This document shows positions 6,581 through 31,146 of a stretch of DNA of 58,796 nt, in pieces (the first letter of the stretch is position 1; each line of letters opens with the position of its first letter). Source of the DNA: Stutzerimonas stutzeri (GTDB lineage: Bacteria > Pseudomonadota > Gammaproteobacteria > Pseudomonadales > Pseudomonadaceae); assembly GCF_000935215.1 (NCBI RefSeq), contig NZ_JXXD01000052.1:1-58796 (forward strand). Reading direction: 5' to 3'. The notes beneath the pieces are model-generated. The model saw nothing but the letters and a program-made list of their open reading frames with translations, had not been told where the DNA came from and ran no database searches. Position numbers and translations under genes: made by a program.

Positions 6581-6667
6581 ACACCTGCTCGATCCTGACG
6601 CTGGACAAGATACGTCGGCCGGATCGGAACTACGCTCTTCTGACCGTACATGCATAAGGAGACGACG

Positions 6668-7069
6668 ATGAAAACGCGTTCTTTGGTGATCGGTTCGGTA
6701 ATGGCGGCTCTGGCGATGTCGGCCGGCGCGCAGACGCCCTCCAGCGATAACGAAGCTTGGCAGCAGCATTGGCAGAAGATGCAGGAGTACCGGCAGGCCT
6801 GGCAGTCTGCGAAGACCCCGCAGGAGCGACAGAAACTTCGCGAAGAGCATTGGCAGAGCATGCAGTCCGGTATGGGTGGCATGGCCGGGTGCCCGATGGG
6901 CGGGCCCGGCGGCGGAATGGGCAAGCAGGGTGGCAAGCCGATGCAGGGCGCCATGGGTGGCGGCATGATGGGCGCGCCGTCCAAGGAGATGCTCGACATG
7001 CGTATCCAGCACATGGAGCAGATGCTCGAGCAGATGCGTAGTCACCGGCAGATGCTCGACAAACAGTAG
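6668..7069 (+). CDS. Small secreted Gly/Met/Gln-rich protein of unknown function
   Basis: A 133-residue predicted periplasmic protein. The signal peptide is MKTRSLVIGSVMAALAMSAG with cleavage expected near AGA. A first helical part (EAWQQHWQKMQEYRQAWQ) is followed by a low-complexity Gly/Met stretch (MGGMAGCPMGGPGGGMG, then GAMGGGMMG) and a helical Met/Gln-rich end. GGAG lies 8 bp before the ATG. The Met clusters could bind copper(I) or act like Spy/CpxP-type helical chaperones, but I cannot place it in a family. It sits between ycgL and ycgN. Confidence 0.75.
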   Translation: MKTRSLVIGSVMAALAMSAGAQTPSSDNEAWQQHWQKMQEYRQAWQSAKTPQERQKLREEHWQSMQSGMGGMAGCPMGGPGGGMGKQGGKPMQGAMGGGMMGAPSKEMLDMRIQHMEQMLEQMRSHRQMLDKQ

Positions 7070-7174
7070 CGCTCGATGTAGCCGCCGGCTCCTACCGGCG
7101 GCATCCGCCTGGCGGCTCTTGGCCGGATATCCGACAGTGGCTAGACTTGCCGGTTTTTACCGGTAGTGACAGTC

Positions 7175-7624
7175 ATGGCGGCCAAGGTCGAACCCTTCTG
7201 GATGCGCAAAACCCTTGCCGAACTCGATGCGGCGGAATGGGAGTCGCTGTGCGACGGATGCGGCCTCTGCTGCCTGCAGAAGCTCGAGGACGAGGAAGAC
7301 GGCGCCGTTTACTACACACGTATCGCCTGCAAGCTGCTCGACCTGAAGACCTGTCGCTGCAGCGATTATCCCAACCGGCGCGCCAGTGTGCCGGACTGCA
7401 TACAGCTGAACGCTGCCGATGCTGCTCAGTTCAAATGGCTACCGCCCACCTGCGCCTACCGCCTGGTGGCCGAGCGCAAGGACCTGCCGCTCTGGCATCA
7501 CCTGGTCTGTGGCGACCCTGAAGCGGTGCACGTCGAGCGGATTTCCCAGTCGGGCCGGATGCTCGCCGAAGGCAGCGTTGCCGAGGAGCACTGGGAAGAC
7601 CACCTGATTTTCCGTGCCGGTTGA
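7175..7624 (+). CDS. ycgN: YcgN-family cysteine-cluster protein (UPF0260)
   Basis: A 149-residue YcgN protein. Cysteine clusters [10 protein letters not shown] near residue 27, CRCSDYPNR in the middle and PTCAYRL further on suggest a bound metal or iron-sulfur centre. The family's biochemical role is not established. The ATG at 7175 is preferred over an in-frame GTG three codons upstream. The next gene begins about 70 bp downstream. Confidence 0.87.
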
Positions 7625-7691
7625 ATCTAAGCCTCGTTTGCATCGTCTCAAGATCAGCACACCCCGCGCGTTTCCGATGGAGTTCTCTTCG

Positions 7692-8912
7692 ATGCTTGTT
7701 CGACTGCTGTCGCTGTTCGCTCTTGTTCTTTTCGTCAGCGCCGAGGCCCACGCGGCCAAGCGGGTCGACCTGGACTATCACGTGCGTTTTCTGCCCGACG
7801 AGGATGAGGCCGAGGTGCAACTGATCCTGGAGAAAGGCGAAGCGGTTCGTAGCCTGGAGTTCAATCTGGGCGATGACGGCTACTACAGCGATTTCGTAGC
7901 GGATGGCGAGTGGTTGCAGGCGTCGCCGGAGCGTGGTGCCTGGCGACCCGCCGAAGGCAAGGCGCGTCTCAGCTACCGCGTGCGTATCAGCCATCCGCGC
8001 GACAACGGACGCTACGACGCACGGATGACCAGTGACTGGGCGCTGTTCCGTGGCGATGATCTGGTGCCGCCGGCCCGGCTCGATCAGGTCGACGGTGTGA
8101 AACTGGTTTCGCGCATCACCTTCGAGCTGCCCGAGGGTTGGAAGAGTATCGAAACCGGCTGGCCGCGTGTCGGCAAGAATCGCTTCCGCGTGGATAACCG
8201 TGAGCGGCTGTTCGACCGGCCGACCGGCTGGATGCTCGCCGGCAAGCTCGGTACCCGTCGCGCCAAGCTCGGCGAAACGGACGTCACCATCGCGGCGCCG
8301 GTTGGCGAGGGCGTCCGGCGGATGGATATTCTGACGATGCTGACCTTCGTCTGGCCGGAGATCCAGCACGTATTCCCACGCGATCCGGAGAAACTCTTGA
8401 TCGTCGGCGCGGGCGATCCGATGTGGCGTGGTGGCCTGTCCGCTCCCAATTCGTTCTACATGCATGCCGACCGTCCGCTGGTCAGCGAGAACGGTACCAG
8501 TTCGCTGGTCCACGAACTGGTGCATGTCTTCAGCCGGATCCAGGACACCGACCGCAGCGACTGGATCAGCGAGGGCTTGGCCGAGTACTACGCCATCGAA
8601 CTGGTGCGGCGCGCCGGCGGCATGAGCGAGGACCGCTACCAGGCCGTGCGCGAGGAACTGAGCGACTGGAGCCGCAAGGTCGACAGCCTGCGCACCGCGC
8701 GTTCCACCGGTCCGGTGACCGCGCGGGCGGTGCTGCTGCTGCAGGAGCTGGACAAGGAGATCCGCCAGCGCAGCAAGAGCCGTTATTCGCTCGACGACGT
8801 GAGCCGCGGGCTGATGCGGCTGGACAAGGTCAGTACCCAGGACTTCATCGACATCACTGAAACATTGCTGGGCGGCGGCTCGAAGGTGCTCGACACACGC
8901 CTGCTGCGCTGA
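7692..8912 (+). CDS. Predicted secreted zinc metallopeptidase (gluzincin type)
   Basis: A 406-residue exported protein with a signal peptide (MLVRLLSLFALVLFVSAEAHA). The zinc-binding HELVH motif is followed after 15 residues by EGLAEYY, which resembles the WxxEGxAxY third-ligand segment of M1/M61-type enzymes. The N-terminal half is beta-rich, as in those families. The ATG at 7692 has GGAG about 9 bp upstream; a second ATG five codons earlier is possible. The substrate is unknown. Confidence 0.75.
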   Translation: MLVRLLSLFALVLFVSAEAHAAKRVDLDYHVRFLPDEDEAEVQLILEKGEAVRSLEFNLGDDGYYSDFVADGEWLQASPERGAWRPAEGKARLSYRVRISHPRDNGRYDARMTSDWALFRGDDLVPPARLDQVDGVKLVSRITFELPEGWKSIETGWPRVGKNRFRVDNRERLFDRPTGWMLAGKLGTRRAKLGETDVTIAAPVGEGVRRMDILTMLTFVWPEIQHVFPRDPEKLLIVGAGDPMWRGGLSAPNSFYMHADRPLVSENGTSSLVHELVHVFSRIQDTDRSDWISEGLAEYYAIELVRRAGGMSEDRYQAVREELSDWSRKVDSLRTARSTGPVTARAVLLLQELDKEIRQRSKSRYSLDDVSRGLMRLDKVSTQDFIDITETLLGGGSKVLDTRLLR

Positions 8913-8993
8913 GCCCGCTGTTCGTTAACGATCGCCGCGCCGCTGAAATCATTTAGGGTGACAGGCTTGTTTCGACGAGGAACCGGAGCTTCC

Positions 8994-10019
8994 ATGAGCA
9001 TCATCGATCTGCGCAGCGACACCGTCACCCAGCCGACCGCGCCGATGCGCGAGGCCATGCTGCGTGCCGCGACCGGCGACGACGTCTATGGCGAGGACCC
9101 CACGGTCAACCGGCTGGAACGCGAACTGGCCGGGCGCCTGGGCTTTTCCGCCGGGCTGTTCGTGCCGTCCGGCACCATGAGCAACCTGCTGGGGCTGATG
9201 GCGCATTGCGAGCGTGGCGACGAGTACATCGTCGGGCAGCAGGCGCATACCTACAAGTACGAGGGCGGCGGCGCGGCGGTGCTGGGCTCGATCCAGCCGC
9301 AGCCCATCGAAATGGAAGCCGACGGTTCGCTGGACCTGGCGCGCGTCGAGGCGGCGATCAAGCCGGACAATTTCCACTTCGCCCGCACCCGCCTGCTGGC
9401 GCTGGAAAACACCATGCAGGGCAAGGTGCTGCCGCTGGGCTATCTGGCCGCCGCGCGTGCCTTCACCCGCGAGCGGGGGCTGCAGCTGCACCTGGATGGC
9501 GCGCGGCTGTTCAACGCGGCGGTGAAGCTCGGCTGCGACGCACAGGCGATCACTCGCCATTTCGATTCGGTGTCGGTCTGTCTGTCGAAGGGCCTGGGAA
9601 CGCCGGTCGGCTCGGTGCTCTGCGGCAGCGACGCCTTCATCGCCAGGGCGCGGCGCCTGCGCAAGATGGTCGGCGGCGGCATGCGCCAGGCCGGCATTCT
9701 CGCCGCCGCGGGGCTGTATGCGCTGGAGCACCACGTCGAGCGGCTGGCCGCGGACCACCAACTGGCGCAGGCGATCGGTTCCGGGCTGGCGGCGCTCGGC
9801 TATGCCGTCGAGCCGGTGCAGACCAACATGGTCTACCTGGACATCGGCGATCGGGCGTCGGCGCTGGCGGCGTTCTGCGCACAGCGCGACATTCGCCTGA
9901 CGCCGGCGCCGCGGCTGCGCCTGGTGACGCACCTGGACCTGCGCCCCGAGCATGTCCAGCCGATCCTCGACAGCTTCGCCGCGTTCGCCCAGGCTGATCG
10001 GGCGGGTGCCGTCGAATAG
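8994..10019 (+). CDS. ltaE: Low-specificity L-threonine aldolase
   Basis: A 341-residue fold-type I PLP enzyme that cleaves L-threonine and L-allo-threonine to glycine and acetaldehyde. It opens with [12 protein letters not shown], the family N-terminal signature. LHLDGAR (D168) contacts the cofactor, and SVCLSKGLG carries the Schiff-base lysine K199. The start is chosen where the family begins; an open frame 12 codons longer lacks a good ribosome site. Confidence 0.92.
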
Positions 10020-10180: not shown

Positions 10181-12806
10181 ATGAAAAGCGCAGAAATCCG
10201 TGAAGCCTTCCTCCGCTTCTTCGAAGAGAAGGGCCACACCCGCGTGGCCTCCAGTTCGCTGATCCCGGCGAACGACCCGACCCTGCTGTTCACCAACGCC
10301 GGCATGAACCAGTTCAAGGACTGCTTCCTCGGCCTGGAAAAGCGCGCCTACACCCGTGCCACCACCAGCCAGAAATGCGTACGCGCCGGCGGCAAGCACA
10401 ACGACCTGGAAAACGTCGGCTACACCGCGCGGCACCATACCTTCTTCGAGATGCTCGGCAACTTCAGCTTCGGCGACTACTTCAAGCGCGATGCCATCAC
10501 CTACGCCTGGGAATTCCTCACCAGCGACAAGTGGTTGAACCTGCCCAGGGAAAAGCTCTGGGTCACGGTCTATGCCAGCGATGACGAGGCCTACGACATC
10601 TGGACCCGGGAAGTCGGCGTGCCGGCCGAGCGCATGGTGCGCATCGGCGACAACAAGGGCGCGCCCTACGCCTCGGACAACTTCTGGGCGATGGGCGATA
10701 CCGGCCCCTGCGGACCCTGCACCGAGATCTTCTTCGACCACGGCGAGCACATCTGGGGCGGCCCGCCCGGCAGCCCGGAAGAGGACGGCGACCGCTACAT
10801 CGAGATCTGGAACAACGTGTTCATGCAGTTCAACAGGACTGCCGACGGCGTCCTGCACCCGCTGCCGGCCCCGAGCGTGGACACCGGCATGGGCCTGGAG
10901 CGCATCAGCGCGGTGCTGCAGCACGTCAACTCGAACTACGAGATCGACCTGTTCCAGAACCTGCTGAGCGCCGCGGCCGAAGCCATCGGCTGCCGCAACG
11001 ACGGCCAAGCCTCGTTGAAGGTCGTCGCCGACCATATCCGCTCCTGCGGCTTCCTCATCGCCGACGGCGTGACCCCGTCCAACGAAGGCCGCGGTTACGT
11101 CCTGCGCCGCATCGTTCGCCGTGCCTGCCGTCACGGCAACAAGCTGGGCGCCAAAGGCAGCTTCTTCCACCGTATCGTCGCCGCACTCGTTGCGGAAATG
11201 GGCGATGCGTTCCCTGAGCTCAAGCAGCAGCAGGCGCATATCGAGCGTGTGCTGAAGAACGAGGAAGAACAGTTCGCCAAAACCCTGGAGCAGGGCCTGA
11301 AAATCCTCGAGCAGGATCTGGCTGGCCTGACCGGCAGCGTCATACCCGGCGATGTGGTGTTCAAGCTGTACGACACCTACGGCTTCCCGGTCGACCTGAC
11401 CGGCGACATCGCCCGCGAGCGCAATCTGACCCTCGACGAAGACGGTTTCGAACGAGAAATGCAGGCGCAGCGTGAGCGTGCGCGTTCGGCCAGTGCCTTC
11501 GGCATGGACTACAACAGCTTGGTAAAAGTGGAAGGCGAAACGCGCTTCCTCGGTTACCAGGGCACATCCGGTGCCGGTAAGGTGCTTGCGTTGTTCAAGG
11601 AAGGCATGGTGGTCGACAGCCTGAGCGCTGGCGAGGAAGGCGTCGTGGTGCTCGATCAGACGCCGTTCTATGCAGAGTCCGGTGGCCAGATTGGTGACTG
11701 TGGCTATCTGGCGGCAGAGGGCTTGCGTTTTCGATGTCCGCGATACCAGCAAGGCCGGCAGCGCATTCCTGCATCACGGCATCGTCGACAGCGGCACGCT
11801 GCACGTAGGTGCGGATGTCGAGGCGACTGTGGATGCGTCCGTGCGCCAGGCCACTGCGCTCAACCATTCGGCAACCCACCTGCTGCATGCCGCGCTGCGC
11901 GAAATTCTTGGCGAGCACGTCAGCCAGAAGGGCTCGCTGGTGGACAGCCAGCGCCTGCGCTTCGACTTCAGCCACTTCGAGGCGATCAAACCAGAGCAGC
12001 TGCGCGCGCTGGAGGATCGGGTCAACGCCGAGATTCGCCGCAACTCCGCGGTGGAGATCGAGGAAACCGATATCGATACCGCCAAGGCCAAGGGCGCTAT
12101 GGCGTTGTTCGGTGAAAAGTACGGTGACTCCGTGCGGGTGCTGACCATGGGCGGTGGCTTCTCGGTCGAGTTGTGCGGCGGTACTCACGTAAACCGCACT
12201 GGCGACATCGGGCTGTTCAAGATCACCAGCGAAGGCGGCGTGGCGGCTGGTGTTCGGCGGATCGAGGCGGTCACTGGTGCACCTGCATTGGCCTATCTCA
12301 ATGCAGCCGAGGAACAGCTGAAAGAGGCGGCGAACCTGGTCAGGGGCAGCCGTGACAATCTGCTCGACAAGCTCGGCGGCATCCTCGAGCGCAACCGTCA
12401 GCTGGAGAAGGAACTCGAGCAGCTCAAGGCGAAGGCGGCCAGCGCAGCAGGCAACGACCTGGCGACCTCCGCCTTGGACGTGAAGGGCGTGCGCGTGCTT
12501 GCTGCGCGCCAGGACGGGCTGGACGGCAAGGCGTTGCTGGCGCTGGTCGACCAGCTGAAGAACAAGCTGGGTAGCGCCGTCATCCTCCTGGGTGGTGTTC
12601 AGGACGATAAAGTGGTGCTGGTCGCGGGCGTAACCCAGGACCTGACTGGTCGTTTGAAGGCCGGCGACCTGATGAAGCAGGCCGCGACAGCGGTTGGCGG
12701 CAAGGGGGGCGGTCGTCCGGATATGGCGCAAGGCGGCGGCAGCGAACCGGCCAAGCTGGACGATGCGCTGGCACTGGCTGTGCCGTTCGCCGAGCAGGGG
12801 CTTTGA
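10181..12806 (+). CDS. alaS: Alanyl-tRNA synthetase, apparent +1 frameshift at 11728-11731
   Basis: Charges tRNA-Ala. The first part (from ATG 10181) has the class II catalytic core ([37 protein letters not shown]). The second part, in another frame, has the editing domain zinc motifs HSATHLLH and CGGTH and the C-Ala domain ending. The frames meet at a run of four T (11728-11731): removing one T gives [13 protein letters not shown] without a break and an 874-residue product, the normal length. As written, the first frame would run on out of frame to a stop at 12115. alaS is essential, so a sequencing or assembly error is most likely; a real mutation with a second alaS copy, or recoding, is less likely. 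Confidence 0.9.
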
Positions 12807-22180: not shown

Positions 22181-22257
22181 GTCCCAGTAGCTCAATTGGA
22201 TAGAGCATCCCCCTCCTAAGGGGAAGGTTGTGAGTTCGAACCTCGCCTGGGACGCCA
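22181..22257 (+). tRNA. tRNA-Arg (anticodon CCU), integration target
   Basis: A 77-nt tRNA with CCT in the anticodon loop and encoded CCA. Acceptor GTCCCAG pairs with CTGGGAC. Its last 45 bases are repeated at 31102-31146, so the integrated element restored the 3' part of the gene. Confidence 0.96.
22213..22257 (+). mobile_element. attL core
   Basis: 45 bp from CTCCTAAGG in the tRNA anticodon arm to the CCA end, identical to 31102-31146. Confidence 0.93.
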
Positions 22258-22314
22258 GTAAAATCAGTACCTTGCAAGACTTTGCATATCTCTTGCTCTC
22301 TCGGTTTACTGATA

Positions 22315-22338
22315 TTTTCCCCGTTCCTTCCCCGTTTC
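22315..22338. repeat. Left copy of 24-bp direct repeat, probable integrase arm site
   Basis: Identical to 30952-30975. Each copy holds two tandem 11-mers TTCCCCGTTYC. It is 57 bp inside attL, in the position expected for arm-type sites of a tyrosine integrase. Confidence 0.6.
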
Positions 22339-22342
22339 CCCT

Positions 22343-22549
22343 TCAGGCCAATAATTCCGTGGCCAGGTCGTGTTCACCAGCGGCACGCAACGCAGCGGCA
22401 GCCAGCTCCATGGCGTTCCGCTTCCGAGTGCCAGAATCAACGCCAACCAGCTTCGGGCCGATCAGGTAGGCTACGCAATGGTCCCAGCTTTCTTCCTCCG
22501 TCAGCTCGGACACTTCCACACGTCGGCCTACCATGCCCTTAGCGGCCAT
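22343..22549 (-). CDS. Small satellite protein, unknown (68 aa)
   Basis: Starts MAAKGMVGRRVEVSEL and ends with the helical AALRAAGEHDLATELLA. Start chosen for the 11-bp overlap with the gene upstream and a GTGGA site. It is the last gene of the minus-strand morphogenesis-side operon and stops just inside the left arm repeat. Not recognised. Its C-terminal motif resembles that of the preceding gene. Confidence 0.55.
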   Translation of the reverse strand: MAAKGMVGRRVEVSELTEEESWDHCVAYLIGPKLVGVDSGTRKRNAMELAAAALRAAGEHDLATELLA

Positions 22550-22751
22550 CGCGGCGTTCCACTTCGTGCACCAGGTCCAGCAGCTTGAAAGCCAGATCAT
22601 CGCGGCCGGCGCGCACCGCATGTTCAATGGCCTGCCGCATCAGCTCGACAGCGCCGTCCAAAGCATCGCCGCGTTCGGTCTCCGATTCGTAGGGCGGCAG
22701 CAGGAAAACGGCCGCATTCTCGGTTGCTTGCGTTAAGCGGTCAGTCTTCAT
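22539..22751 (-). CDS. Small satellite protein, unknown (70 aa)
   Basis: MKTDRLTQATENAAVFLL, then an acidic/helical region ending AVRAGRDDLAFKLLDLV. It overlaps both neighbours by 11 bp, which indicates translational coupling in the terS operon. No family recognised; shares an A-x-R-A-G-x-x-D-L-A-x-x-L-L pattern with the following gene. Confidence 0.6.
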   Translation of the reverse strand: MKTDRLTQATENAAVFLLPPYESETERGDALDGAVELMRQAIEHAVRAGRDDLAFKLLDLVHEVERRDGR

Positions 22752-23223
22752 CGGTGGGATCATCCTCAGGCGTAAAATCAGCCTCGGCAGCAGTGGCCAG
22801 GGCTAGGGTAATTTCGTCGGTTAGGACCTGTTTAAACCTTGCTTCGTCGGTTTCGCCGATGAGGCTGGAAACAACGCGACGCGGCACCTGCAGCATGTTT
22901 GCGCGAATTACGCCACAGGCTTGCTGCCAGACAGATTCCATTTCTGCGATTGGCGCGACTTCTCCGCGTGCCTTGGCTAGCTCAAGTTCGGCACGGTCGG
23001 CATCGGCTCGGGTCTTCCGAGTGCGCTGCCGGTTAAGTTCGGAACCTTGCCCGCTGGCTTCCTCGATCAGCGCCGCGAAGGCTTCGCCCAGCAGGAAGCG
23101 GCCAGGCCGGCAGCGCGTTAGCGTGCCTTGTTCGGCCAGTTGCCGGATGCGGCGAGCCGACACGCCAGCCAGGGCGCCCAACTCGGCATCAGTCACTTCG
23201 AGGCTCGTAAGCTCAGCGGTCAT
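22741..23223 (-). CDS. Nu1-type phage terminase small subunit
   Basis: 160 residues. The N-terminal part is a MerR-like winged helix (LGALAGVSARRIRQLAEQGTL), followed by the Nu1 signature region RKTRADADRAELELAKARGEV. The C-terminus is acidic. Small terminases choose the DNA to be packaged; in satellites a private terS redirects the helper phage packaging motor. No large terminase is present here. The start overlaps the upstream gene as ATGA. Confidence 0.78.
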   Translation of the reverse strand: MTAELTSLEVTDAELGALAGVSARRIRQLAEQGTLTRCRPGRFLLGEAFAALIEEASGQGSELNRQRTRKTRADADRAELELAKARGEVAPIAEMESVWQQACGVIRANMLQVPRRVVSSLIGETDEARFKQVLTDEITLALATAAEADFTPEDDPTDED

Positions 23224-23417
23224 TCGCTTGGCCTCTGAGGGGTTGGCTCCAGGGGGGCCAGGTCGTAATCACGCAACGCGAACGCCGCAGACTTGAGCGC
23301 TTCGCACATAATGCGGATCGACTTTCCACGGTCGCGCGCCCTGGTCGGTAGGCGCCAATCGTCTTCGATGCGCCTTGCCAGTGCGATGGTGTTGGCCAGC
23401 TGCCCGTACATGTTCAT
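23220..23417 (-). CDS. Small satellite protein, unknown (65 aa)
   Basis: MNMYGQLANTIALARRIEDDWRL followed by a helical segment with CEALKSAAFALRDYDLAPL. ATGA overlaps at both ends place it firmly in the operon. No family recognised. Confidence 0.6.
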   Translation of the reverse strand: MNMYGQLANTIALARRIEDDWRLPTRARDRGKSIRIMCEALKSAAFALRDYDLAPLEPTPQRPSE

Positions 23418-23767
23418 AAGCCGCCGTCCATCGTGCCAATCAGGCAGCCGCGCTTGGCCATGCGAGCACGCGCACGTTCGCCAGGGCTGCAGTGCTTGGA
23501 TGGGCGCCAGCGCGGCCGGCTGGCCATTTCGCGGGCGTGCTCCGCGTCGGCATGGCGCGTCAGGGCACTGGCCAAGCGTGTGGCGGTGGTCTTGGCTTCG
23601 TCGGCGGTGCGGCGAGCGTTGCGCAGCAGCTCAGGCAATGCCGCGTCCAGGGGCTGACGCTTGATAATCTGCTTGGTGCCGTGCGCTGCGTGAAGCAGGC
23701 GATTGGCTTCGTTCTCAAGCTGGGTTTGCAGTTCCAGTAGCTCGGCCAGGGTTTCGTCGGTGTTCAT
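23414..23767 (-). CDS. Coiled-coil satellite protein, unknown (117 aa)
   Basis: Mostly helical with heptad-like Leu spacing at the N-terminus (DETLAELLELQTQLENEANRLL) and a basic C-terminal region with CSPGERARARMAKRGC. Its ATG is only 13 bp after a terminator-like hairpin (23780-23808), an unusual arrangement. No family recognised. Confidence 0.6.
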   Translation of the reverse strand: MNTDETLAELLELQTQLENEANRLLHAAHGTKQIIKRQPLDAALPELLRNARRTADEAKTTATRLASALTRHADAEHAREMASRPRWRPSKHCSPGERARARMAKRGCLIGTMDGGL

Positions 23768-23779
23768 ATTGTCGGCTCT

Positions 23780-23808
23780 AAAAAGGCCGGCCCGTACAGG
23801 CGCCGGCT
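23780..23808 (-). terminator. Terminator-like hairpin within the satellite operon
   Basis: On the minus strand GCCGGC ... GCCGGC flanks a short loop and is followed by CTTTTTA. It lies after the 58-residue gene and just before the 117-residue gene, so it could split the operon or act as an attenuator. The 106 bp between it and 23915 carry an open stretch (HTGLARRFLDEA) without a start codon, possibly a gene remnant. Confidence 0.6.
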
Positions 23809-23914
23809 CCGAGAAATAGGGCCGCGCATTTCCACAGCCGGGGGCGCGGTCAAACCCGGTGCTGCCAGCCTGACGCCTCGTCGAGGAAGCGCCGCGCCAG
23901 GCCGGTGTGTTCAG

Positions 23915-24091
23915 TCAGTCGTGGTCTACGCCAAGACCCTTTTCTATTGCCCGCTGCGCAACTCTGGTCGCGCTGGGTGCATAACCACCAACTTTCTCAG
24001 CTCGGGCGCGTTCAGCCGCAATAGCAGCGATGATTGCAGGGGTGGCGCGTATACAGATTTTTCGTTGGGAGTCGTTCTTCGCTTCTTTCAT
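23915..24091 (-). CDS. 58-residue ribbon-helix-helix-like protein
   Basis: Begins MKEAKNDSQRKICIRATPAI and ends ATRVAQRAIEKGLGVDHD. A short strand (RKICIRAT) followed by two helices is the layout of small RHH DNA-binding proteins. The gene starts 6 bp after the upstream gene's stop, so it fits the operon. The ribosome site is weak (GGTGAAAG). The function is inferred only from the predicted layout; it may regulate satellite or helper genes. Confidence 0.55.
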   Translation of the reverse strand: MKEAKNDSQRKICIRATPAIIAAIAAERARAEKVGGYAPSATRVAQRAIEKGLGVDHD

Positions 24092-24097
24092 TGTCTT

Positions 24098-24424
24098 TCA
24101 CCAGTTGGTCGCCCAATTGCGGCGGGGCTCTGCCATGTCGTGTTCAGCCTGGCGCAAATAGCCGCCGACCAGGCTTCCGATATAGCGCGTAGCGCGGCTG
24201 GCTTGAGCATCGTTCAGTTCGGGGAAGGCCGCTGCAACGAAGTCAGCAGCGGCGGTGCGGTCGTAGATGAAACCGCCGAAGCCCACAGGCTGAACGATGA
24301 CACGCGGTGCGCCATCCTCGCCGGGCTGGCGGGCGTAGATTGCCGCGCCGTCCAGGGCTGCCAGAACTTCAGATGGCAGGGCGGAACTAACCGCCTCGCC
24401 GTCCTGCTCTCGCTTGAAAATCAC
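24098..24424 (-). CDS. Satellite protein, unknown (108 aa)
   Basis: A GTG at 24424, just after the capsid-like gene's stop, is chosen as start (VIFKREQDGEAV); an ATG at 24469 would overlap that gene by 44 bp. Contains VIVQPVGFGGFIYDR and an Arg-rich end. By position next to a capsid gene it could be a head-completion or decoration protein, but I see no family signature. Confidence 0.6.
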   Translation of the reverse strand: MIFKREQDGEAVSSALPSEVLAALDGAAIYARQPGEDGAPRVIVQPVGFGGFIYDRTAAADFVAAAFPELNDAQASRATRYIGSLVGGYLRQAEHDMAEPRRNWATNW

Positions 24425-24425
24425 T

Positions 24426-25361
24426 TCAAGCCACCGAGAAAAACGCGCTGTCGTCGGGCAGCAACGCAATCAGATTGGCATGGGCGGTCAGCTCCATGGA
24501 GCCGTCGAGATTGGTCCGCTTGGCTACCAGGCTGATTTCCTCGCCAACTGCAACGGCAGCGCGGTTGAAGGCGCCCACAATGGTGGCGGCGGTGGTGTCG
24601 GTCAGCTCGGCGGGCACGCCAGCGACGCGCAGAACGCCATCGGCGCCGACAGCCGCACCATCGGCATCAGTGCCCACCAGGGCGGCCAGCTCGCCGAACT
24701 TCAGGCCACGGGCAGCAGCAGCCGCCAGGGTGAAGGTTGCTGGAGTGGTGGCGACGATGGCAGCCAGCAGGCAAACATCGGCAGCACGCGCCAAACCGAG
24801 CCCCATGGCGGCCAGGACGGCTTCAGGAAGCTGGCCGGTGCCTTCGAAGTCTTTCAACTCGCGGCGCGACAGAGTGCAGCTGAACGAGTAGGTGGGCGCC
24901 GTTTCCGGCTCGAACTCAGCCACGGAGCGGTAGACGGGCACCGCGCTATTCGGCACGTCGGCACCGTCGGCCAGGATGGCGAACTTTGCGGCCTCGACCG
25001 TGGTGAAGCTGGCCAGGCGGCTGCGCAACGCGATGTCACCCGACAGGCCGCCACCTTGGATCGGCTCCGGTGCGGCTGGAACGACGAAGACTGTAGCGCC
25101 GGCCTGAGCGATGCGGCTTTGCTCGATCACTGCGCCGCTGAAGGTGGTTTTTGCGCCGGCCTGGGTAGTACCAGGCAGCCTGGCAATCGCATTGCCGGCA
25201 GTGCCGACCAGGGAAGGCATGGTCAGATCACGCAGCGAGACGCGGGCGACGCTGGCGGCTGCCTTCGGGATGGCGGCGCGGGTTGCGCCGTTGCCGTCGT
25301 AAATTTCGTGATAGCCGAGTTGATGCTTGGCGGATTCGATTAGCTGGCGAAGTTGGTTCAT
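24426..25361 (-). CDS. HK97-type major capsid-like protein
   Basis: 311 residues without an N-terminal scaffolding (delta) domain. The middle segment YSFSCTLSRRELKDFE followed by LPEAVLAAMGLGLARAADVCLL matches the spine-helix region of HK97-type capsids. The C-terminus (VGAFNRAAVAVGEEISL, then ELTAHANLIALLP) matches the P/A-domain ending of the same fold. The assignment is from pattern recognition, not alignment. No protease or portal gene is nearby. GGGGAG lies upstream of the ATG. Confidence 0.6.
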   Translation of the reverse strand: MNQLRQLIESAKHQLGYHEIYDGNGATRAAIPKAAASVARVSLRDLTMPSLVGTAGNAIARLPGTTQAGAKTTFSGAVIEQSRIAQAGATVFVVPAAPEPIQGGGLSGDIALRSRLASFTTVEAAKFAILADGADVPNSAVPVYRSVAEFEPETAPTYSFSCTLSRRELKDFEGTGQLPEAVLAAMGLGLARAADVCLLAAIVATTPATFTLAAAAARGLKFGELAALVGTDADGAAVGADGVLRVAGVPAELTDTTAATIVGAFNRAAVAVGEEISLVAKRTNLDGSMELTAHANLIALLPDDSAFFSVA

Positions 25362-25712
25362 TGGGGAGAAGCCTCAGTATTGGTAGCAAGTGGCACCATT
25401 CTGAGCAGTCGCTAAATTTGGTTCCTCCCGGAGTTTTTCCAAGGCACGTCAGTGGCGTGCTAGGAAGTTTGGTAGGTAATTTTTGATGCCTCGGAGATAT
25501 GCGTTATCGCGGTGCTGCTGCCCCCGCATGGGACACCCGCCAGGAAGGACCCACGAAGTTTCCCAGGCTAATCAGGGGCGATAATGTGCGCCACGCATCC
25601 CCCAAGACAGTCAGTTGTTCCGACAGTCGCGCCCCGCTCAACCAAGGCACTATTGCTCAGCTTGTGAGTGCGCCATACGCTGCGTGGGTCTTTATCAATC
25701 AAGGATGTAGCT
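25362..25712. other. Intergenic region between capsid-like gene and DUF2513 gene
   Basis: 351 bp with no supported gene. It should hold the minus-strand promoter of the capsid operon and the plus-strand promoter of the DUF2513 gene. A small inverted repeat (GCACG 25446-25450 / CGTGC 25458-25462) is present. I could not identify a cos or pac site by eye. Confidence 0.35.
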
Positions 25713-26063
25713 ATGAAGCGCGACTGGGATGTGATTCGTGAAGTGCTGATAGAAGTTGAAGCATTGACGCCTGGAACTTATGAGGCCATCCAGTACGACG
25801 ACGAAGACCCGACAAAAGCCGCTCATGCAATGCTTCTCTGGCGGGCTGACTTCATTCAAGGTGTTGATGCTTCGAGCTTGGACGGAGATTCGATAATCGC
25901 TCAAGCGCTTACGTGGGAAGGCCACGATTTGCTTGAGACGATTCGAAGTCAGGCGGTGTGGGAGCGAATCAAGACGACGGCTCGGGATAAAGGGATAGAG
26001 CTAACGTTCGACTCAGTCAAAGCGCTTGGGAAATACGCGCTTGAATGGATCATCAGCAACTAG
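25713..26063 (+). CDS. DUF2513 family protein
   Basis: 116 residues starting MKRDWDVIREVLIEVEAL, which matches the DUF2513 opening. AAGGATG precedes the ATG. It is the only plus-strand gene of the element and sits between the capsid operon and the origin, the usual place for accessory cargo. DUF2513 proteins are common in phages and islands; their role is unknown. Confidence 0.75.
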   Translation: MKRDWDVIREVLIEVEALTPGTYEAIQYDDEDPTKAAHAMLLWRADFIQGVDASSLDGDSIIAQALTWEGHDLLETIRSQAVWERIKTTARDKGIELTFDSVKALGKYALEWIISN

Positions 26064-26067
26064 GTTG

Positions 26068-26339
26068 GGTGAACGACTAGCAATGACGTTCACCAAGTCG
26101 TTCACCCATCTGCAGCCCTAGTGCCGCGTGGCTTTGAGCAGTTTCGGGGTGAACGATGAACGTCTTTTTTGCATATAAATAGGTAGGCGTCTATTTGGGC
26201 TGATAGACGCCCCCTTTCTTCTTTTAAGGGAAAAGACGTTCACTCGTTCACCTTTTTGCCCTCAAATCCAGTAACCATGCGGTTTACAGGTGGGTGAACG
26301 TCTAGGTGAACGTCTGGTGAACGTCTCTGCTCGTTCACC
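26068..26339. other. Iteron-type replication origin of the satellite
   Basis: Ten copies of GGTGAACG or its complement, the last base varying in one copy. Direct copies start at 26068, 26148, 26293, 26305 and 26316. Inverted copies start at 26087, 26099, 26237, 26245 and 26332. They form two clusters flanking an A+T-rich stretch (26162-26230). Phage P4 uses GGTGAACAG iterons at ori and crr, bound by its alpha primase-helicase, so this adjacent replicase probably binds here. Origin activity is inference. Confidence 0.75.
26186..26211. repeat. Inverted repeat in the A+T-rich origin core
   Basis: GGCGTCTA (26186-26193) / TAGACGCC (26204-26211) with a 10-nt spacer, between the two iteron clusters. 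Confidence 0.7.
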
Positions 26340-26350
26340 TTTTTAGACAT

Positions 26351-26374
26351 AAAAAACCCCGCGTTGCGGGGTTT
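26351..26374 (-). terminator. Terminator of the alpA-replicase operon
   Basis: On the minus strand CCCCGC AAC GCGGGG is followed by TTTTTT, 20 bp after the replicase stop. It separates replicase transcription from the origin. Confidence 0.9.
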
Positions 26375-26394
26375 GGGGTGCGGGTCCCAGCTAT

Positions 26395-28698
26395 TCAACA
26401 GGGTCTGCCTGCGACCAATACAGGCACGTCGAAGAAAAGGCCCGATTTAGTGCGTCTCGGTGTCCCGAACAATTGGCGAAGGGCTTGGCCAGCATCGTTC
26501 TTCTGCCGCTGGGTTGGTCGGTCGAAACCAATTTCCAGCAGAATATCGGTCGCGGTCATTGGGCGTCGGATAGCATCAGCCGGCGCGGAGCCGTATCGGG
26601 ATTGAATCAATTCCTGGACCGGGTCAGTCTGCTGGTGCTCGGCGTTGACTCCTTCCAATTGAGCTTCCTCGCCTCGATCCAGCCACCAGCGTTCACCGGC
26701 CTGATACCAGGAAAAGACTTCAGCCCACAGCTGCTGCATGTCGATGCCGTGCTGGTAGTTGACGCTCACCACCGGAACAGTCCACCACCGCACATTCCCT
26801 GTGTCGTCGGCTAAGAACTGCTCAGGGTTCACACTGGCGAAAAATACGGTTCGCCGTTGGAATTTTTCTTCGGTGCGTCCGTAGGGGCGACGGAACTGGT
26901 CCACGTCCTGGCTGATAAAGCCTTTCAGGCGGGCAATGTCCGCTTTGCGTAGAGTGCCGTCCAGCTCGCCCAGCTCCACCAGCCAATGCGAAACGGCGCT
27001 GATGATGCTGTCTTTGTTGTCAGGATTGATAGTGGCGTCGATTTTCACCAGGTCGCGCAGCTCGTCAGGCACCAAGGCGCGAATCCAGGCGGTTTTACCG
27101 ATTGATTGGTCTCCCTGAAAAACCAGTACGCCTTTAGACCAGAAGCCAAACGGCTTGGCAGCTGCTGCAACTGCGGAGACCAGCCAGCGGCGTAGCAGGA
27201 TCGCTAGCAGGTCGCGGTCATAACCAGGGCGCGTTTGGATGGTGTCCAGTAGCTCAGCAAAGCGGGATTGGCCGTCCCATGGCTTGGATTGGATAAAGTC
27301 CATAACCGGATTGAAGGCGTTGTCATCCCCGATGCTGAGCAGAAACGACGGAGTGTCCGACTTAGGGAGGCGGTTAAGAGCAGCCAGGCTCAGAACGGTG
27401 TCAACAGCCTTGCTGCGCTGGTTGTCCACTGTGCCGCATTGCCCTGGATAGCGAATAACCAGGTCCTTTCGGATCACGTCGTAACGAACGGTGAACCCAT
27501 AGTTCGCCAGTAGGTGTTCCAAGTTAGGAATGGTATTTAGTGGTTGGCCGTTGCTTGACGTGTGCGGCCAGGTCATCAGGGGGACAGGCGGCAGCTGGTG
27601 AACATCGCTTACTTGATCGAACAGTGACGGCGCATTGTGGCTTGCCGGAACTGGCGCTAGGGCTGTGCTTAGCAGCTGGCCAACTTCATCCACACTGCGA
27701 CGCGCCGCATAGTCGTTCCAGTCGTCGCCGACGGTCGGCGGCATGGCACATGGCAGGCCGGTAGCTTCGGCCCCCTTGCGACCGGCGCCGTTTGCATCGT
27801 TGTCGGCAGCAACTGCGCTGACCTGATCGGGCAGCTGTCGCGCTACCTCGGCCAAGTTGCCTGCATCGAATGCCACGACAACGGAAGCGCCGGTCGCTGC
27901 ATGAACGGTGGCTGCCGTAGCGTAACCCTCTGCAATCCAGGCCTGTGCCGTGCCCTCGATGCGGTGGAAGGTGCCTTTCTTGCGACCACCCATAACGAAG
28001 CGCTTTCTGCCGTCGGCGTCGATACGCTGGACGTTCCATAGCTTGCCGGCGCTATCCACCATCGGCACTAGCAGATCACCTTTCCGAACAGCAAAGACGT
28101 TCTGCCATTCGCGCTTTTCGTTGTTCCAAAGGTGTGCCCGCATGTCAGCGCGGGCCTTGCGCAATCCGTGTGCTTGTACGCGCTTGCTGGTCAGGTATGG
28201 ATGTTCCGAGCATGGCTCGGCATCGGCCCAGGCTGTTGCCACAGCCTCAGCGGCTGCCTCGTGACCGGCTTTGCGTTGCGCTTCCGCCAATATCTTACCG
28301 GCCTCGCTGGCTGCCCTCAGCTCAGCGGCTCGGGCTTGATATTCGGCGGTGCGGTCGGGGCTATGGGGAGTCTCGGCGCGATCTGCCTGCCATTGCTGAT
28401 ACGCCAAATCGCGCGCTTTCCAGAAAACCGAATCCTTGCCTAAGCCGGTAAACGTTACGGCAGGCCAGGTTGTTCCATCGGCATCGGTAACATACTCGCC
28501 ACGATAGGAGTGCTTCTGCTGGTCCGAGCCTTTTAGGTTAGGCAAGTAATGCCACGTGTTATCCAAGATGGGTAGATATTCCAGCTGCGCACCGACGCTA
28601 GCTGCCGCCATCACCGCGTCGTCGAAATATTCGGCTAGCGCATCAGCTGGACTCGGGAAGCGATTGGCGACCCAAAGCGCAAATTTGCTAGGGGTCAT
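26395..28698 (-). CDS. TOPRIM primase fused to VapE-type helicase (satellite replicase)
   Basis: 767 residues. The N-terminal third resembles phage-type primases. The TOPRIM segment has IAEGYATAATV (255-265), AFDAGN (276-281) and AADNDANGAG (297-306). The C-terminal half is of virulence-associated E type: Walker A GDQSIGKT (529-536), Walker B-like WLVELGELDG (572-581), KADIARLKGFISQDVDQFR, and RRTVFFASVN. It should prime and unwind satellite DNA at the adjacent iterons. The ATG at 28698 overlaps the upstream stop (ATGA); an ATG ten codons earlier is less likely. Confidence 0.85.
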   Translation of the reverse strand: MTPSKFALWVANRFPSPADALAEYFDDAVMAAASVGAQLEYLPILDNTWHYLPNLKGSDQQKHSYRGEYVTDADGTTWPAVTFTGLGKDSVFWKARDLAYQQWQADRAETPHSPDRTAEYQARAAELRAASEAGKILAEAQRKAGHEAAAEAVATAWADAEPCSEHPYLTSKRVQAHGLRKARADMRAHLWNNEKREWQNVFAVRKGDLLVPMVDSAGKLWNVQRIDADGRKRFVMGGRKKGTFHRIEGTAQAWIAEGYATAATVHAATGASVVVAFDAGNLAEVARQLPDQVSAVAADNDANGAGRKGAEATGLPCAMPPTVGDDWNDYAARRSVDEVGQLLSTALAPVPASHNAPSLFDQVSDVHQLPPVPLMTWPHTSSNGQPLNTIPNLEHLLANYGFTVRYDVIRKDLVIRYPGQCGTVDNQRSKAVDTVLSLAALNRLPKSDTPSFLLSIGDDNAFNPVMDFIQSKPWDGQSRFAELLDTIQTRPGYDRDLLAILLRRWLVSAVAAAAKPFGFWSKGVLVFQGDQSIGKTAWIRALVPDELRDLVKIDATINPDNKDSIISAVSHWLVELGELDGTLRKADIARLKGFISQDVDQFRRPYGRTEEKFQRRTVFFASVNPEQFLADDTGNVRWWTVPVVSVNYQHGIDMQQLWAEVFSWYQAGERWWLDRGEEAQLEGVNAEHQQTDPVQELIQSRYGSAPADAIRRPMTATDILLEIGFDRPTQRQKNDAGQALRQLFGTPRRTKSGLFFDVPVLVAGRPC

Positions 28699-29033
28699 GC
28701 CGCCACCCATCGGTTTTTCGCGGCGCAATGCTGCGCGTCTACTGCCAGCCGCCAGGCGTCCAACTCAGTGAATACGAATGGCAGTTCTTGAGGTGCGCTG
28801 CCAGCCATCCGCGCCAGGTTGAGCGCGAACGCTGGACGTCCCATCGCAACGGCTGCGCAAATGACTTCTTGAGCTGCCGCAAGTCGTTGTGCGTCTAGCT
28901 GCTGGCCAGGCTGCAGCCAGCGTGTCTGCAGTGGTGCGATTACTAAGTCGGCGTAACGCTGCAGCATCGGTTGTAGTCTCGCGGGCGCACGTCTCCCGCG
29001 ACCGGCGATGCGCCGGTTCGAATGGGCAGACAT
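28695..29033 (-). CDS. Satellite protein between alpA and replicase, unknown (112 aa)
   Basis: A basic N-terminus (SNRRIAGRGRRAPARLQ) is followed by a helical domain (LDAQRLAAAQEVICAAVAMG). GAGGG precedes the ATG, 3 bp separate it from the alpA stop, and it overlaps the replicase start (ATGA). It probably assists replication or its control. No family recognised. Confidence 0.65.
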   Translation of the reverse strand: MSAHSNRRIAGRGRRAPARLQPMLQRYADLVIAPLQTRWLQPGQQLDAQRLAAAQEVICAAVAMGRPAFALNLARMAGSAPQELPFVFTELDAWRLAVDAQHCAAKNRWVAA

Positions 29034-29036
29034 GAT

Positions 29037-29225
29037 TCAGCCCTCGCCGGTAACAGGGCGAGAGGTCAGCCAGGCTTCAAGTTCAGATTCGAGCCAGCCA
29101 ACGCGGCGCGGACCGATCTGGCGGCGACGCGGCATGTGACCGGCATTCTCCCAGCGCCAAAGGGTGACGCGGCTAACGCCAAGCTGCTGGCAAACGGTTT
29201 TTTCAGAGAGGATTCGGTTTTGCAT
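29037..29225 (-). CDS. alpA: AlpA-type helix-turn-helix regulator
   Basis: 62 residues: ILSEKTVCQQLGVSRVTLWRW is the AlpA/excisionase-like winged helix, followed by PRRRQIGPRRVGWLESELEAWL. AlpA proteins activate integrase or excision genes in P4-like elements and PICIs. The ATG at 29225 is chosen by family length; the frame is open a further 19 codons upstream. A palindrome lies just upstream. Confidence 0.8.
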   Translation of the reverse strand: MQNRILSEKTVCQQLGVSRVTLWRWENAGHMPRRRQIGPRRVGWLESELEAWLTSRPVTGEG

Positions 29226-29231
29226 TTGGAT

Positions 29232-29247
29232 GGTCTCATTCGAGACC
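29232..29247. promoter_or_regulatory. Palindromic operator candidate before alpA
   Basis: GGTCTC-ATTC-GAGACC, a perfect 6+6 palindrome 7 bp upstream of the alpA start. Its position suggests repression of alpA translation or transcription, possibly autoregulation. Confidence 0.45.
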
Positions 29248-29378
29248 GAGGGGCTGCATAGCACTTGCACCATGACGGGCAATCGCGCAGCATTATCAGG
29301 CGTCCCAACGCTCTGACGTCGCCTCGGCGCTGTTCAGATACGGAGCGGAGAGCGCGCCAACGCCTTCCGCACCACTTC

Positions 29379-29401
29379 AAAGCCCGCCCTGTGCGGGCTT
29401 T
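29379..29401. terminator. Hairpin between int and alpA
   Basis: AAAGCCCGC / GCGGGCTTT with a 5-nt loop. A T-rich tail follows on the plus strand (GTTGTTT). On the minus strand it lies between the int stop and alpA and could end int transcripts. Confidence 0.6.
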
Positions 29402-29477
29402 GTTGTTTCACTGTATCCAGCACCGAAAATGACGGCAACTAGCTGATTTTTAACGAAATTAACTAACGTTGCTCCAC

Positions 29478-29517
29478 GTTATTCACAGTTATTAGCGGTT
29501 ATCCGTAGTTATCGAAT
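29478..29517. repeat. Four tandem 10-bp repeats GTTATNNNNN
   Basis: GTTAT begins at 29478, 29488, 29498 and 29508, an exact 10-bp period. The block is just downstream of int in an A+T-rich stretch and is followed by two copies of AATCTTTAC 11 bp apart (29515-29523 and 29526-29534). One-turn phasing suggests a cooperative protein-binding array. Confidence 0.6.
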
Positions 29518-29538
29518 CTTTACGTAATCTTTACATTT

Positions 29539-30948
29539 CTAACGTTCGATTTTCCTACGTTTGCGAATCGTGATGGCCTCGTGCGCATCGTTCCCCTTGA
29601 GGGTGTCCAGGTAATTTCCCCACAGCAGCAGTGCCTCGGTTTTCTCCGGTAGATAGCTGTTCCTGTCGTAGTGCTTTGCTTGAACTCCACTCCGGCCGTG
29701 TGACAGCAGCCAGGCTCGTGTTTCGCTGGAAACACCGTTTGCTGCTAGTAGGGTCTCGCATGTTGCCCGCACGCGCTGCCAACTAAACGGTGTTGTTTCG
29801 CCGGTCTTAACTAGTGCTTTGCTTGCGTCGGTGAAGACTCGGGCGATCGTATCCCGATTAGCGGTTACTCCCTCTTTCAGGCAAAAAGGGCCAGGTCCAA
29901 TGCGGTCTGCAGTAAGCGGCGCCAGGATCGCCTTAATTTGCGGTGTTATCGGAAGCAAGTGTTCCCAGGCTTCAACCTTTCGGCCTTTCAGGTCAAGAAG
30001 CGTCAGCGTATGGTCCGTCATATGTTCCCAGCCAACGGCTAGTAGCTGCCTGATTCGCTGCCCGCCGAGGTAAATTAGAGCCTTGGCGATTGCTGCCTTT
30101 CTTGCGTCTCGCGCATGCAGAGTATCTAGGTAGCGGAGCAGGCTGCCTAATTCTGCAGGCTGCATCGATTCGGTATTACCTCCGCTCGCGTCTTCAATCG
30201 GTGCAATGATGGCAGCGGGGTTCGTCGTAATGCGGAAACGTTTGTCAGAGCCGGTACGGCCGACTGCCAAGTGTGCAGCCGCAGCATATTTGAAGGCGGT
30301 TCGGATGTAGCGGCGCAGCTCATCTGTCGTGCTGCGCATGTTGGTCGAGGGGGCGGCGGCTTTGTTTCCTATGCCTCGACCCTTAGGGCGCCTCAGCAAT
30401 ACGGCGTTGAGCAGGTCTGCGATATCTTCGGGCGTTATTTCATCTGCATAGCGGGCCGCCAAGTCCGGCCGAAACTCCAGCACGTTCACTTTGAACAGCG
30501 AACGAACCTTTTTTGCGCTGGCCTTACCGGCTGCTTCAAGGTGGTCGCAATAGCTCGCTAGCATTTCGCCAAAAGTACCGCGTTTCGCTGCCTCTTCCTG
30601 CTCGCGTTTCTTCTTGGCGCGATCAATTTCAGCCTGTGCGGCGTCTTCAGCCTGCCTCTGTAGGTATGCCGCAAGGCCGCCGACGCTCGCCGCCTCGGTT
30701 GCGATTCGCAATGCTTCCGCGCGGATATCCTGCAAGGTCATTTCGGCAGAGCCTGGCGCCGGCTGCTTGGAAAGAATGCCGATTTGAAGGCGCCTGTCCG
30801 TTGATGGGGTGCGCTCACGATAAAAAGCCATTATCGCGCCTGAAGCCTTGCGCTCCAGCAACAGCGACCCCATGCCCTTAGACCCTACTGGTTCCGATAG
30901 GCGGGTTTTAACGGCGTGTGCTTCCATCGCCGTGAGTCGTTTAGCCAT
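29539..30948 (-). CDS. int: Tyrosine recombinase (integrase)
   Basis: 469 residues. A helical N-terminal arm-binding and core-binding region precedes the C-terminal catalytic domain. Catalytic residues are R298 (GGQRIRQLL), R394 (SWQRVRATCETLL), H417 (LLSHGRSG) and nucleophile Y427 (KHYDR). The box II histidine of the usual HxxR is replaced: the segment reads SWQR-VR. The start MAKRLTAMEAHAVK has a GGGGAA site that lies inside the right 24-bp arm repeat. It is next to attR and reads away from it. It should integrate the element at tRNA-Arg(CCU). Confidence 0.9.
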   Translation of the reverse strand: MAKRLTAMEAHAVKTRLSEPVGSKGMGSLLLERKASGAIMAFYRERTPSTDRRLQIGILSKQPAPGSAEMTLQDIRAEALRIATEAASVGGLAAYLQRQAEDAAQAEIDRAKKKREQEEAAKRGTFGEMLASYCDHLEAAGKASAKKVRSLFKVNVLEFRPDLAARYADEITPEDIADLLNAVLLRRPKGRGIGNKAAAPSTNMRSTTDELRRYIRTAFKYAAAAHLAVGRTGSDKRFRITTNPAAIIAPIEDASGGNTESMQPAELGSLLRYLDTLHARDARKAAIAKALIYLGGQRIRQLLAVGWEHMTDHTLTLLDLKGRKVEAWEHLLPITPQIKAILAPLTADRIGPGPFCLKEGVTANRDTIARVFTDASKALVKTGETTPFSWQRVRATCETLLAANGVSSETRAWLLSHGRSGVQAKHYDRNSYLPEKTEALLLWGNYLDTLKGNDAHEAITIRKRRKIER

Positions 30949-30951
30949 ATC

Positions 30952-30975
30952 TTTTCCCCGTTCCTTCCCCGTTTC
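30952..30975. repeat. Right copy of 24-bp direct repeat, overlapping int ribosome site
   Basis: Identical to 22315-22338 and in the same orientation. It covers the int ribosome-binding region (GGGGAA on the minus strand), 126 bp from the attR core. Integrase binding here could repress its own synthesis. Confidence 0.6.
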
Positions 30976-31101
30976 GCACGGGAAGTTAGGGTATGGCATG
31001 AAACGAGCTTAAGCAATTTTCGAAAAAAATCACTTATAAATCAGTTATTTGGGTTATCGATGATGATTGGCAGAAATTCCATGAAACAACGTAACTTCCC
31101 G

Positions 31102-31146
31102 CTCCTAAGGGGAAGGTTGTGAGTTCGAACCTCGCCTGGGACGCCA
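31102..31146 (+). mobile_element. attR core (tRNA-Arg 3' fragment)
   Basis: Perfect copy of the last 45 bases of tRNA-Arg(CCU). An inverted repeat CGGGAAGTTA (30979-30988) / TAACTTCCCG (31092-31101) ends exactly at the core boundary. The following chromosomal gap to 31262 holds only a hairpin (CAAGGCTTGT 31179-31188 / ACAAGCCTTG 31214-31223). Confidence 0.93.

Follow-up and report, generated by a model that had tools for sequence, protein, structure and literature searches.

A phage satellite in a tRNA-Arg(CCU) gene of Stutzerimonas stutzeri carries its own capsid gene and a small terminase with a putative private cosB

We analyzed a 58,796-bp stretch of Stutzerimonas stutzeri DNA (contig NZ_JXXD01000052.1, positions 1 to 58,796 of the forward strand; hereafter the window) that contains an 8,889-bp phage satellite in a tRNA-Arg(CCU) gene. 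The element is probably a satellite of ∼40–44-kb myophages that resembles gram-negative phage-inducible chromosomal islands (PICIs) packaged from a cohesive-end site (cos); in this reading it combines a private pair of small terminase (TerS) and cosB with a Ccm-like capsid protein, to which packaging and capsid roles can putatively be assigned. The exact 45-bp repeats, profile matches, and a predicted fold agree with an earlier sequence-only reading, which had described an element of this length with an integrase, AlpA, a TOPRIM/VapE replicase, a capsid-like gene, and a Nu1-type terS, and had taken it for a satellite that brings a replicase, a capsid-like gene, and terS of its own. The features that carry the argument are as follows.

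22213–22257, plus strand: attL, exact 45-bp repeat, equal to the 3′ end of tRNA-Arg(CCU)
31102–31146, plus strand: attR, exact 45-bp repeat
22741–23223, minus strand: TerS of Nu1 type, 160 aa (phrog_57, E 2e-30), with a split between N- and C-terminal domains
24426–25361, minus strand: HK97-fold capsid protein, 311 aa (predicted structure; no Pfam or PHROG match)
25464–25485, minus strand: TerS box position, not helper-like (score −6.9 vs 7.2 to 18.7 in 10 of 11 TerS-less loci)
25488–25552, minus strand: cos site with cosQ/cosN-like left part and diverged right part (nhmmer 25.2 bits, E 7e-7 in the window alone)

The repeats flank the unit at the tRNA-Arg(CCU) gene (22181–22257), an integration at a specific att site as in gram-negative PICIs, and the empty site was matched over 111 of 111 bases in one genome of the same species. 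The names attached to close protein hits point to Stutzerimonas or a neighbouring genus as the probable host. Related loci were found on genome contigs of three Pseudomonas (L009, L010, and L011), Hydrogenophaga, Novosphingobium, P. sagittaria, and two Lysobacter (eight loci). L009, L010, and L011 adjoin the same tRNA-Arg(CCU) and have the same gene order, which the sequence-only reading had proposed to look for at other Pseudomonas tRNA-Arg sites; TerS is present in L010 only. Viral contigs yielded L017, and an enteric query added L050–L052; a third scan of viral contigs, with another subset of relatives as queries, returned L017 again and nothing else. Plasmid records contained five circular elements from Escherichia, Proteus, and Salmonella, four of 8.9–9.3 kb and one 17.4-kb dimer. 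The genera come from the searches, and the classes we take to be gamma-, beta-, and alphaproteobacteria. In a wider sample the capsid family has 4 carriers among 398 genomes from the family of the window and 1 among 369 from its class (both counts include the window's genome), so that the independent set stayed small.

None of the 19 satellite loci, the window included, matched profiles of the helper-phage large terminase (TerL), portal, Hc1, Neck1, or joining protein; being helper-derived, these profiles would miss portals or TerLs of a quite different kind, and the control phage ep3, which matches all five, itself sits in all but the joining-protein profile. Together with Pfam and PHROG scans of 11 of the 13 proteins of the window element, they revealed no complete set of head and tail genes, as is the case for gram-negative PICIs. 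The absence of portal, TerL, connector, protease, and tail genes noted from the sequence is upheld. The word 'reduced' is not. All 18 other loci likewise lack helper-type portal and TerL, and the circumstance named beforehand as speaking against that reading, namely that relatives always contain portal and terL, was encountered in none of the loci.

The cos site was located with an nhmmer model built from six helper-phage cos junctions, from which PPpW-3 was left out because its printed ends, once joined, repeat about a dozen bases. The model found one strong site in the window (25.2 bits, compared with 12.6 bits for the best of 100 shuffles) and matched all 15 relatives searched (L005 not included), in 14 of which the best match lies upstream of the capsid gene; with the window, this arrangement holds for 15 of 16 loci. 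In the TerS-less enteric satellites, about 99 bp are 83–86% identical to the region upstream of the ep3 TerS, and in the TerS-bearing ones the identity is 71–73% over 78–93 bp; base 1 of the Arya record falls within the stretch common to the enteric satellites and ep3. Among the 398 family genomes, only the window matched a strict cos pattern that was written after the window had been seen; this pattern passes over the three other genomes of the family with the capsid gene and shows no helper prophage. In L014 (P. sagittaria), the better of two cos-like sites (11911–11983) lies downstream of the capsid gene, and the upstream one has a box resembling that of the window, though no TerS gene was found. 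The window element holds both its own terS and a helper-type cos; gram-negative PICIs are characterized by one or the other.

Lambda TerS contacts DNA through its N-terminal domain and TerL through its C-terminal part (PMC9026076). Satellite and helper TerS proteins are 19.3% identical in the N-terminal part (28 pairs) vs 37.9% in the C-terminal part (32 pairs), with N/C values of 53.3/48.4% between satellites and 42.2/43.8% between helpers; the satellite set excludes L004, which nearly duplicates L008, and the starts of two helper proteins were annotated short. Judged by these identities, the satellite TerS keeps a helper-like C-terminal half, but not a helper-like DNA-binding half. The DNA next to cosN shows a corresponding pattern when scored with a matrix from nine helper sequences (background 95th percentile 2.6, 99th percentile 6.2). 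A helper TerS box with a score of at least 7.2, above the 99th percentile, was present in 10 of the 11 TerS-less loci; TerS-bearing loci scored −6.9 to 5.05, none of the five above that percentile (one-sided Mann–Whitney P 0.0066 over 17 sites). With the matrix already fixed, another seven enteric loci were retrieved, and all agreed (two TerS-bearing, five TerS-less); weak TerS-profile matches in three of them are AlpA. The window's box coordinates were derived by hand from the scoring offsets and checked against the sequence, and 25464–25485 is a candidate private cosB.

Two natural comparisons indicate how such a pair could be exchanged. The mosaic L004 is L002-like (95–100% identity over most of the kilobase before cos, with two 20-bp steps at 85–90%) and L008-like after it; the ancestry changes within the first 60 bp of cos, from which it follows that cosB, capsid gene, and TerS entered together. 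L010, with TerS, and L011, without it, are 94–96% identical from integrase to replicase, and their cos stretches cannot be aligned by blastn. On balance we lean toward a model in which one satellite family alternates between two cassettes, a copied helper TerS box used with the helper TerS, or a private TerS with a matched private box. Recombination within cos would swap lock and key together, and packaging specificity would evolve as a separate module, uncoupled from the backbone that serves replication and integration. In searches of the CC-licensed PMC literature, we found no report of a satellite-encoded TerS paired with a private box in a PICI, of such a pair alternating with box mimicry within one family, or of a Jilinvirus-type helper for a PICI.

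The HK97 fold of the window capsid protein is clear from its predicted structure; structural realignment of 994 chains covers only chains ranked by Foldseek. A Pfam scan found no protease domain in its 311 residues, and tblastn gave no match at E 1e-5 among 50,697 phage records. The capsid gene is under purifying selection, with a ratio of nonsynonymous to synonymous substitution rates (dN/dS) of 0.15–0.24 in four pairs of relatives. In L013 (2737–4332) and L016 (9080–10732), the capsid protein is fused to an S78-type protease, similar to the fused protease-capsid protein of helper phages, and the helper capsid profile matches these two loci via the fused protease (PHROGs).

The likely helpers are small (about 40–44 kb) myophages of the ep3/Arya, PPpW-3, Persinger, and Mano kind, to judge from sequence matches, and the element appears to borrow its remaining particle parts from this one group of small tailed phages. 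The window's own pointers are its cos and TerS. The latter matches 20 phage records (E 1e-5), nearly all of the ep3/Arya/Persinger/Mica kind, with one Exiguobacterium phage; PPpW-3 and Mano are missing from this list, though their TerS aligns. Relatives contribute further matches: the protease part of the L013 fusion matches 77 phage records (best 48–57%, of the FoX, Mica, Mano, ep3, and PPpW-3 kind), with phages beyond the helper kind also among the 40 of 77 records listed; the enteric tape measure matches 504 records, with ep3-type phages on top at 59–62% over full length (best 30 of 504); and the primase region of an enteric circle finds the same phages by DNA. PPpW-3 has the gene order TerS, TerL, joining protein, portal, capsid protein; one record labels this capsid protein 'capsid protein and peptidase U35'. 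Jilinvirus and its kin are 41–44-kb myoviruses that are considered virulent, some with seemingly intact lysogeny genes, and prophages have been recorded (PMC11990801).

In the mechanism that we propose, integrase and AlpA would excise the element from tRNA-Arg, VapE would replicate it from the iterons into concatemers, and the element's TerS would bind the private cosB box beside the helper-type cosQ/cosN, where the sequence pattern itself is observed. The helper-like C-terminal half of TerS would then hand the DNA to the helper TerL. The capsid protein, given its fold, may join or replace the helper shell, most likely for a smaller head as with SaPIbov5 Ccm, and the helper would supply portal, protease, connectors, and tail, because these are absent from the element.

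Other roles of the capsid protein have to be weighed against this. It could by itself form the whole shell with helper portal and protease, which would make the element a stripped capsid-forming PICI (cf-PICI). We consider this unlikely, though worth keeping in mind: none of the 19 loci has a helper-type portal, TerL, or connector, a protease domain is absent from the window protein, and, by an argument from length only, 311 aa leave no room for a long N-terminal delta domain. A smaller probability is given to a protein that only poisons helper head assembly while the satellite travels as concatemers in full-size helper heads. Packaging of a model PICI from E. coli yields concatemers of phage length (PMC10111431), the putative capsid gene c1499 of EcCICFT073 gave no phenotype (PMC6092414), and one relative has been recorded as a dimeric circle; nothing decisive stands on the other side, as neither the position of cos upstream of the capsid gene nor purifying selection tells the two roles apart. 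That the element is a decayed remnant of a cf-PICI or prophage, as the partial head module might suggest, is very improbable. Portal and TerL are likewise missing from the relatives in several classes (a decayed cf-PICI was rejected on this ground), dN/dS is well below 1, and open frames and att sites are intact.

Several observations weigh against the satellite reading with private TerS/cosB and Ccm-like capsid protein. The c1499 result does so too, and PICI capsid genes are not required for helper-assisted transfer (PMC10111431). Between the capsid profiles of satellites and helpers, hhalign gives only a faint alignment (probability 2%, P 0.02), which weakens the idea of co-assembly. The box was spotted by eye before being scored, its matrix misses two of nine helpers once these are omitted from it (Mano 2.3, Alexa 0.9), and no test, including the Mann–Whitney test, was corrected for phylogeny. 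At 5.05, the TerS-bearing L004 and L008 exceed the 95th percentile of the background; L017 was grouped with the TerS-less loci but contains a 49-aa fragment resembling TerS; and L014, without TerS by profile and without a helper box at both sites, fits neither cassette state. The seven further enteric loci are closely related to one another and to the loci scored first: the five TerS-less ones have one identical box sequence, and L055 equals L008 at 98.9–100% except for a split replicase. VP882 TerS compared with window TerS shows no N/C split (22/24%). The cos matches in L010, L012, and L016 are weak (E 0.0012–0.0067), the best L014 match lies downstream of the capsid gene (E 0.36 for the match upstream of it), and no cos was matched at the starts of the FoX1, Mica, and VP882 records. 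Finally, the host genome (G000) contains no helper-type TerL (PPpW-3 query, E up to 1e-10), and among 56 genomes of the genus, seven have one at 28–40% identity, one of them with two stops.

The remaining features of the element are listed below.

29539–30999, minus strand: tyrosine integrase, 486 aa (phrog_1, E 2e-22)
29037–29282, minus strand: AlpA-type regulator/excisionase (PF05930, E 6e-13)
28695–29033, minus strand: 112-aa protein between alpA and the replicase gene (homologs in L009–L011 36–55%, in enteric circles about 36%)
26395–28728, minus strand: Toprim/VapE replicase, 777 aa (PF05272, E 1e-51; PF13362, E 6e-9)
26068–26326, no strand: iteron-like repeats GGTGAACGTCT, five copies plus inverted copies, after VapE
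25668–26063, plus strand: DUF2513 protein (PF10711, E 9.5e-20; 71% identical in L011)
24098–24469, minus strand: conserved small protein, 123 aa, immediately following the capsid gene (of 14 loci searched by blastp, all but L015 match)
23915–24091, minus strand: 58-aa protein (62% identical over 53 residues in L011)
23414–23767, minus strand: 117-aa protein with a conserved basic C-terminal motif (its family includes a protein of an enteric satellite, hhalign 93.7%)
23220–23417, minus strand: 65-aa protein (68% identical in L010 and L011)
22539–22763, minus strand: 74-aa protein (60% identical in L010)
22343–22627, minus strand: 94-aa open frame (61% identical over 54 residues in L009)

The minus-strand order is integrase, AlpA, 112-aa protein, Toprim/VapE, capsid protein, 123-aa, 58-aa, 117-aa, and 65-aa proteins, TerS, 74-aa protein, and 94-aa frame. 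The only plus-strand gene, DUF2513, between Toprim/VapE and the capsid gene, is probably an accessory gene. The order of integrase, alpA, replicase, and origin, mostly in one direction, is that of gram-negative PICIs, with the origin placed from repeats only: the iteron-like repeats are the probable origin, and their presence after VapE accords with the origin claimed in the sequence-only reading. The integrase is 66% identical to those of L009–L011 beside the same tRNA, and the replicase also matches phrog_2249 DNA primase (E 8e-128). No PADLOC defence match was found in the eight window-element proteins scanned, the DUF2513 protein among them. The 123-aa gene has a dN/dS of 0.089 in L010/L011; the protein model (predicted local distance difference test score 75.6) gave no fold match in the PDB under E 0.001, and a link to the helper's post-capsid protein was rejected (hhalign 0.4%). 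The 117-aa family was not found in nine helper stretches, one of them a whole genome; speculatively, this protein is a possible scaffold or size factor.

Further observations concern the relatives and the integration site. L002, L003, L004, and L006 are circular ∼9-kb enteric satellites recorded as plasmids, with replicase, cos, capsid, and tape-measure genes, and L005 consists of two tandem copies that are 99.96% identical over 8.4 kb. The enteric circles gave no blastp match to two reference satellite integrases. DNA of a circle was matched in 65 of 5,426 E. coli genomes, 64 times chromosomally and never over 80% of its length, and the six chromosomal loci read all adjoin fis. Tape-measure genes are present in L008 (11929–14214), L007 (11637–13925), L017 (5007–7523), and L013 (5002–7050), and none was found in the window element; along its full length, that of L008 shares about 60% identity with the tape measures of Jilinvirus, and the enteric loci among these have no other tail gene annotated. 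The L009 replicase (6179–9706, 1,175 aa) has Toprim and a weak helicase-like match but no VapE match in Pfam; the replication module seems to be swapped between sister elements. The L008 replicase gene (5940–8408) is interrupted by an IS1-like element (by annotation), and the TerS-like 49-aa frame of L017 (2712–2861) lies between cos and capsid gene. A second att-like copy lies about 9.6–19 kb away at tRNA-Arg(CCU) in G010, G028, G054, G025, G036, and G027, which suggests that congeners carry other islands in the same gene; eight stretches from seven congener genomes at this tRNA gave no blastp match (E 1e-3) to reference satellite proteins.

These results name a likely helper class for a satellite family that spans several proteobacterial classes and pinpoint the exact DNA for packaging tests. 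The paired contrasts L007/L008 and L010/L011 and the L004 mosaic bear on how satellites retarget cos packaging without Rpp.

Among known satellites, cf-PICIs are defined by a complete head module of portal, TerL, protease, and connector (PMC13230959). P4-like satellites are not known to have a capsid protein of their own and carry Sid, Psu, and delta genes. The window element shares an HK97-fold capsid protein with cf-PICIs (EcCI2 structure 9gyi); unlike them, it has no protease domain and no helper-type portal, TerL, or connector, and the complete head module was not found by the scans described above. It differs from P4-like satellites in having its own capsid protein; no Sid, Psu, or delta name appeared among the Pfam/PHROG matches, and no separate search for them was made. 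PICMI satellites are described as lacking capsid-remodelling genes; the window element has a capsid gene with a putative remodelling role. Like the satellite-plasmid (PISP) TG93 of Vibrio, from which genus such satellite-plasmids are known, it has capsid and small terminase genes without a complete head. TG93 carries parA/repA and a capsid of the E family with protease (PMC13230959), and PISP are episomal without an integrase; the window element has an integrase and att sites and is integrated. The enteric circles look like another satellite-plasmid group, comparable with TG93.

The closest likeness is to the gram-negative PICIs EcCICFT073 and PmCI172, which have integrase, alpA, replicase, origin, and late genes mostly in one direction and frequently a capsid homolog; EcCICFT073 also has a cos with a helper-like cosN and a changed cosB (PMC6092414, PMC10111431). 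The window element differs from these two in its helper class, in its own TerS in place of Rpp, and in a capsid family without Pfam/PHROG match, and at 8.9 kb it is slightly below the 10–20 kb quoted for such islands. Of 29 reference gram-negative PICIs, 21 have a major capsid gene (PMC10111431), and some gram-negative PICIs carry terS (PMC6092414); the placement 'between known satellite types' therefore does not hold, because a capsid homolog in the absence of a full head module is frequent among gram-negative PICIs and the 18 other loci, too, are without helper-type portal and TerL. PICIs with a capsid homolog are already known, as is a changed cosB with a helper-like cosN, there with Rpp. 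As in the Rpp-type PICIs A, B, C, and G, packaging would be shifted off the helper cosB with cosQ and cosN kept; Rpp hijacks the phage TerS (PMC9026076), whereas the satellite TerS has its own helper-like C-terminal half, so the helper TerS may not be needed. SaPIbov5, also a cos-type satellite, has in Ccm a capsid-protein homolog without the rest of the head. Ccm is a homolog of its helper's capsid protein, whereas the window protein is barely above fold-level likeness to that of its supposed helper; by analogy, Ccm comes closest to a functioning precedent for a satellite capsid protein that stands alone (PMC8569155).

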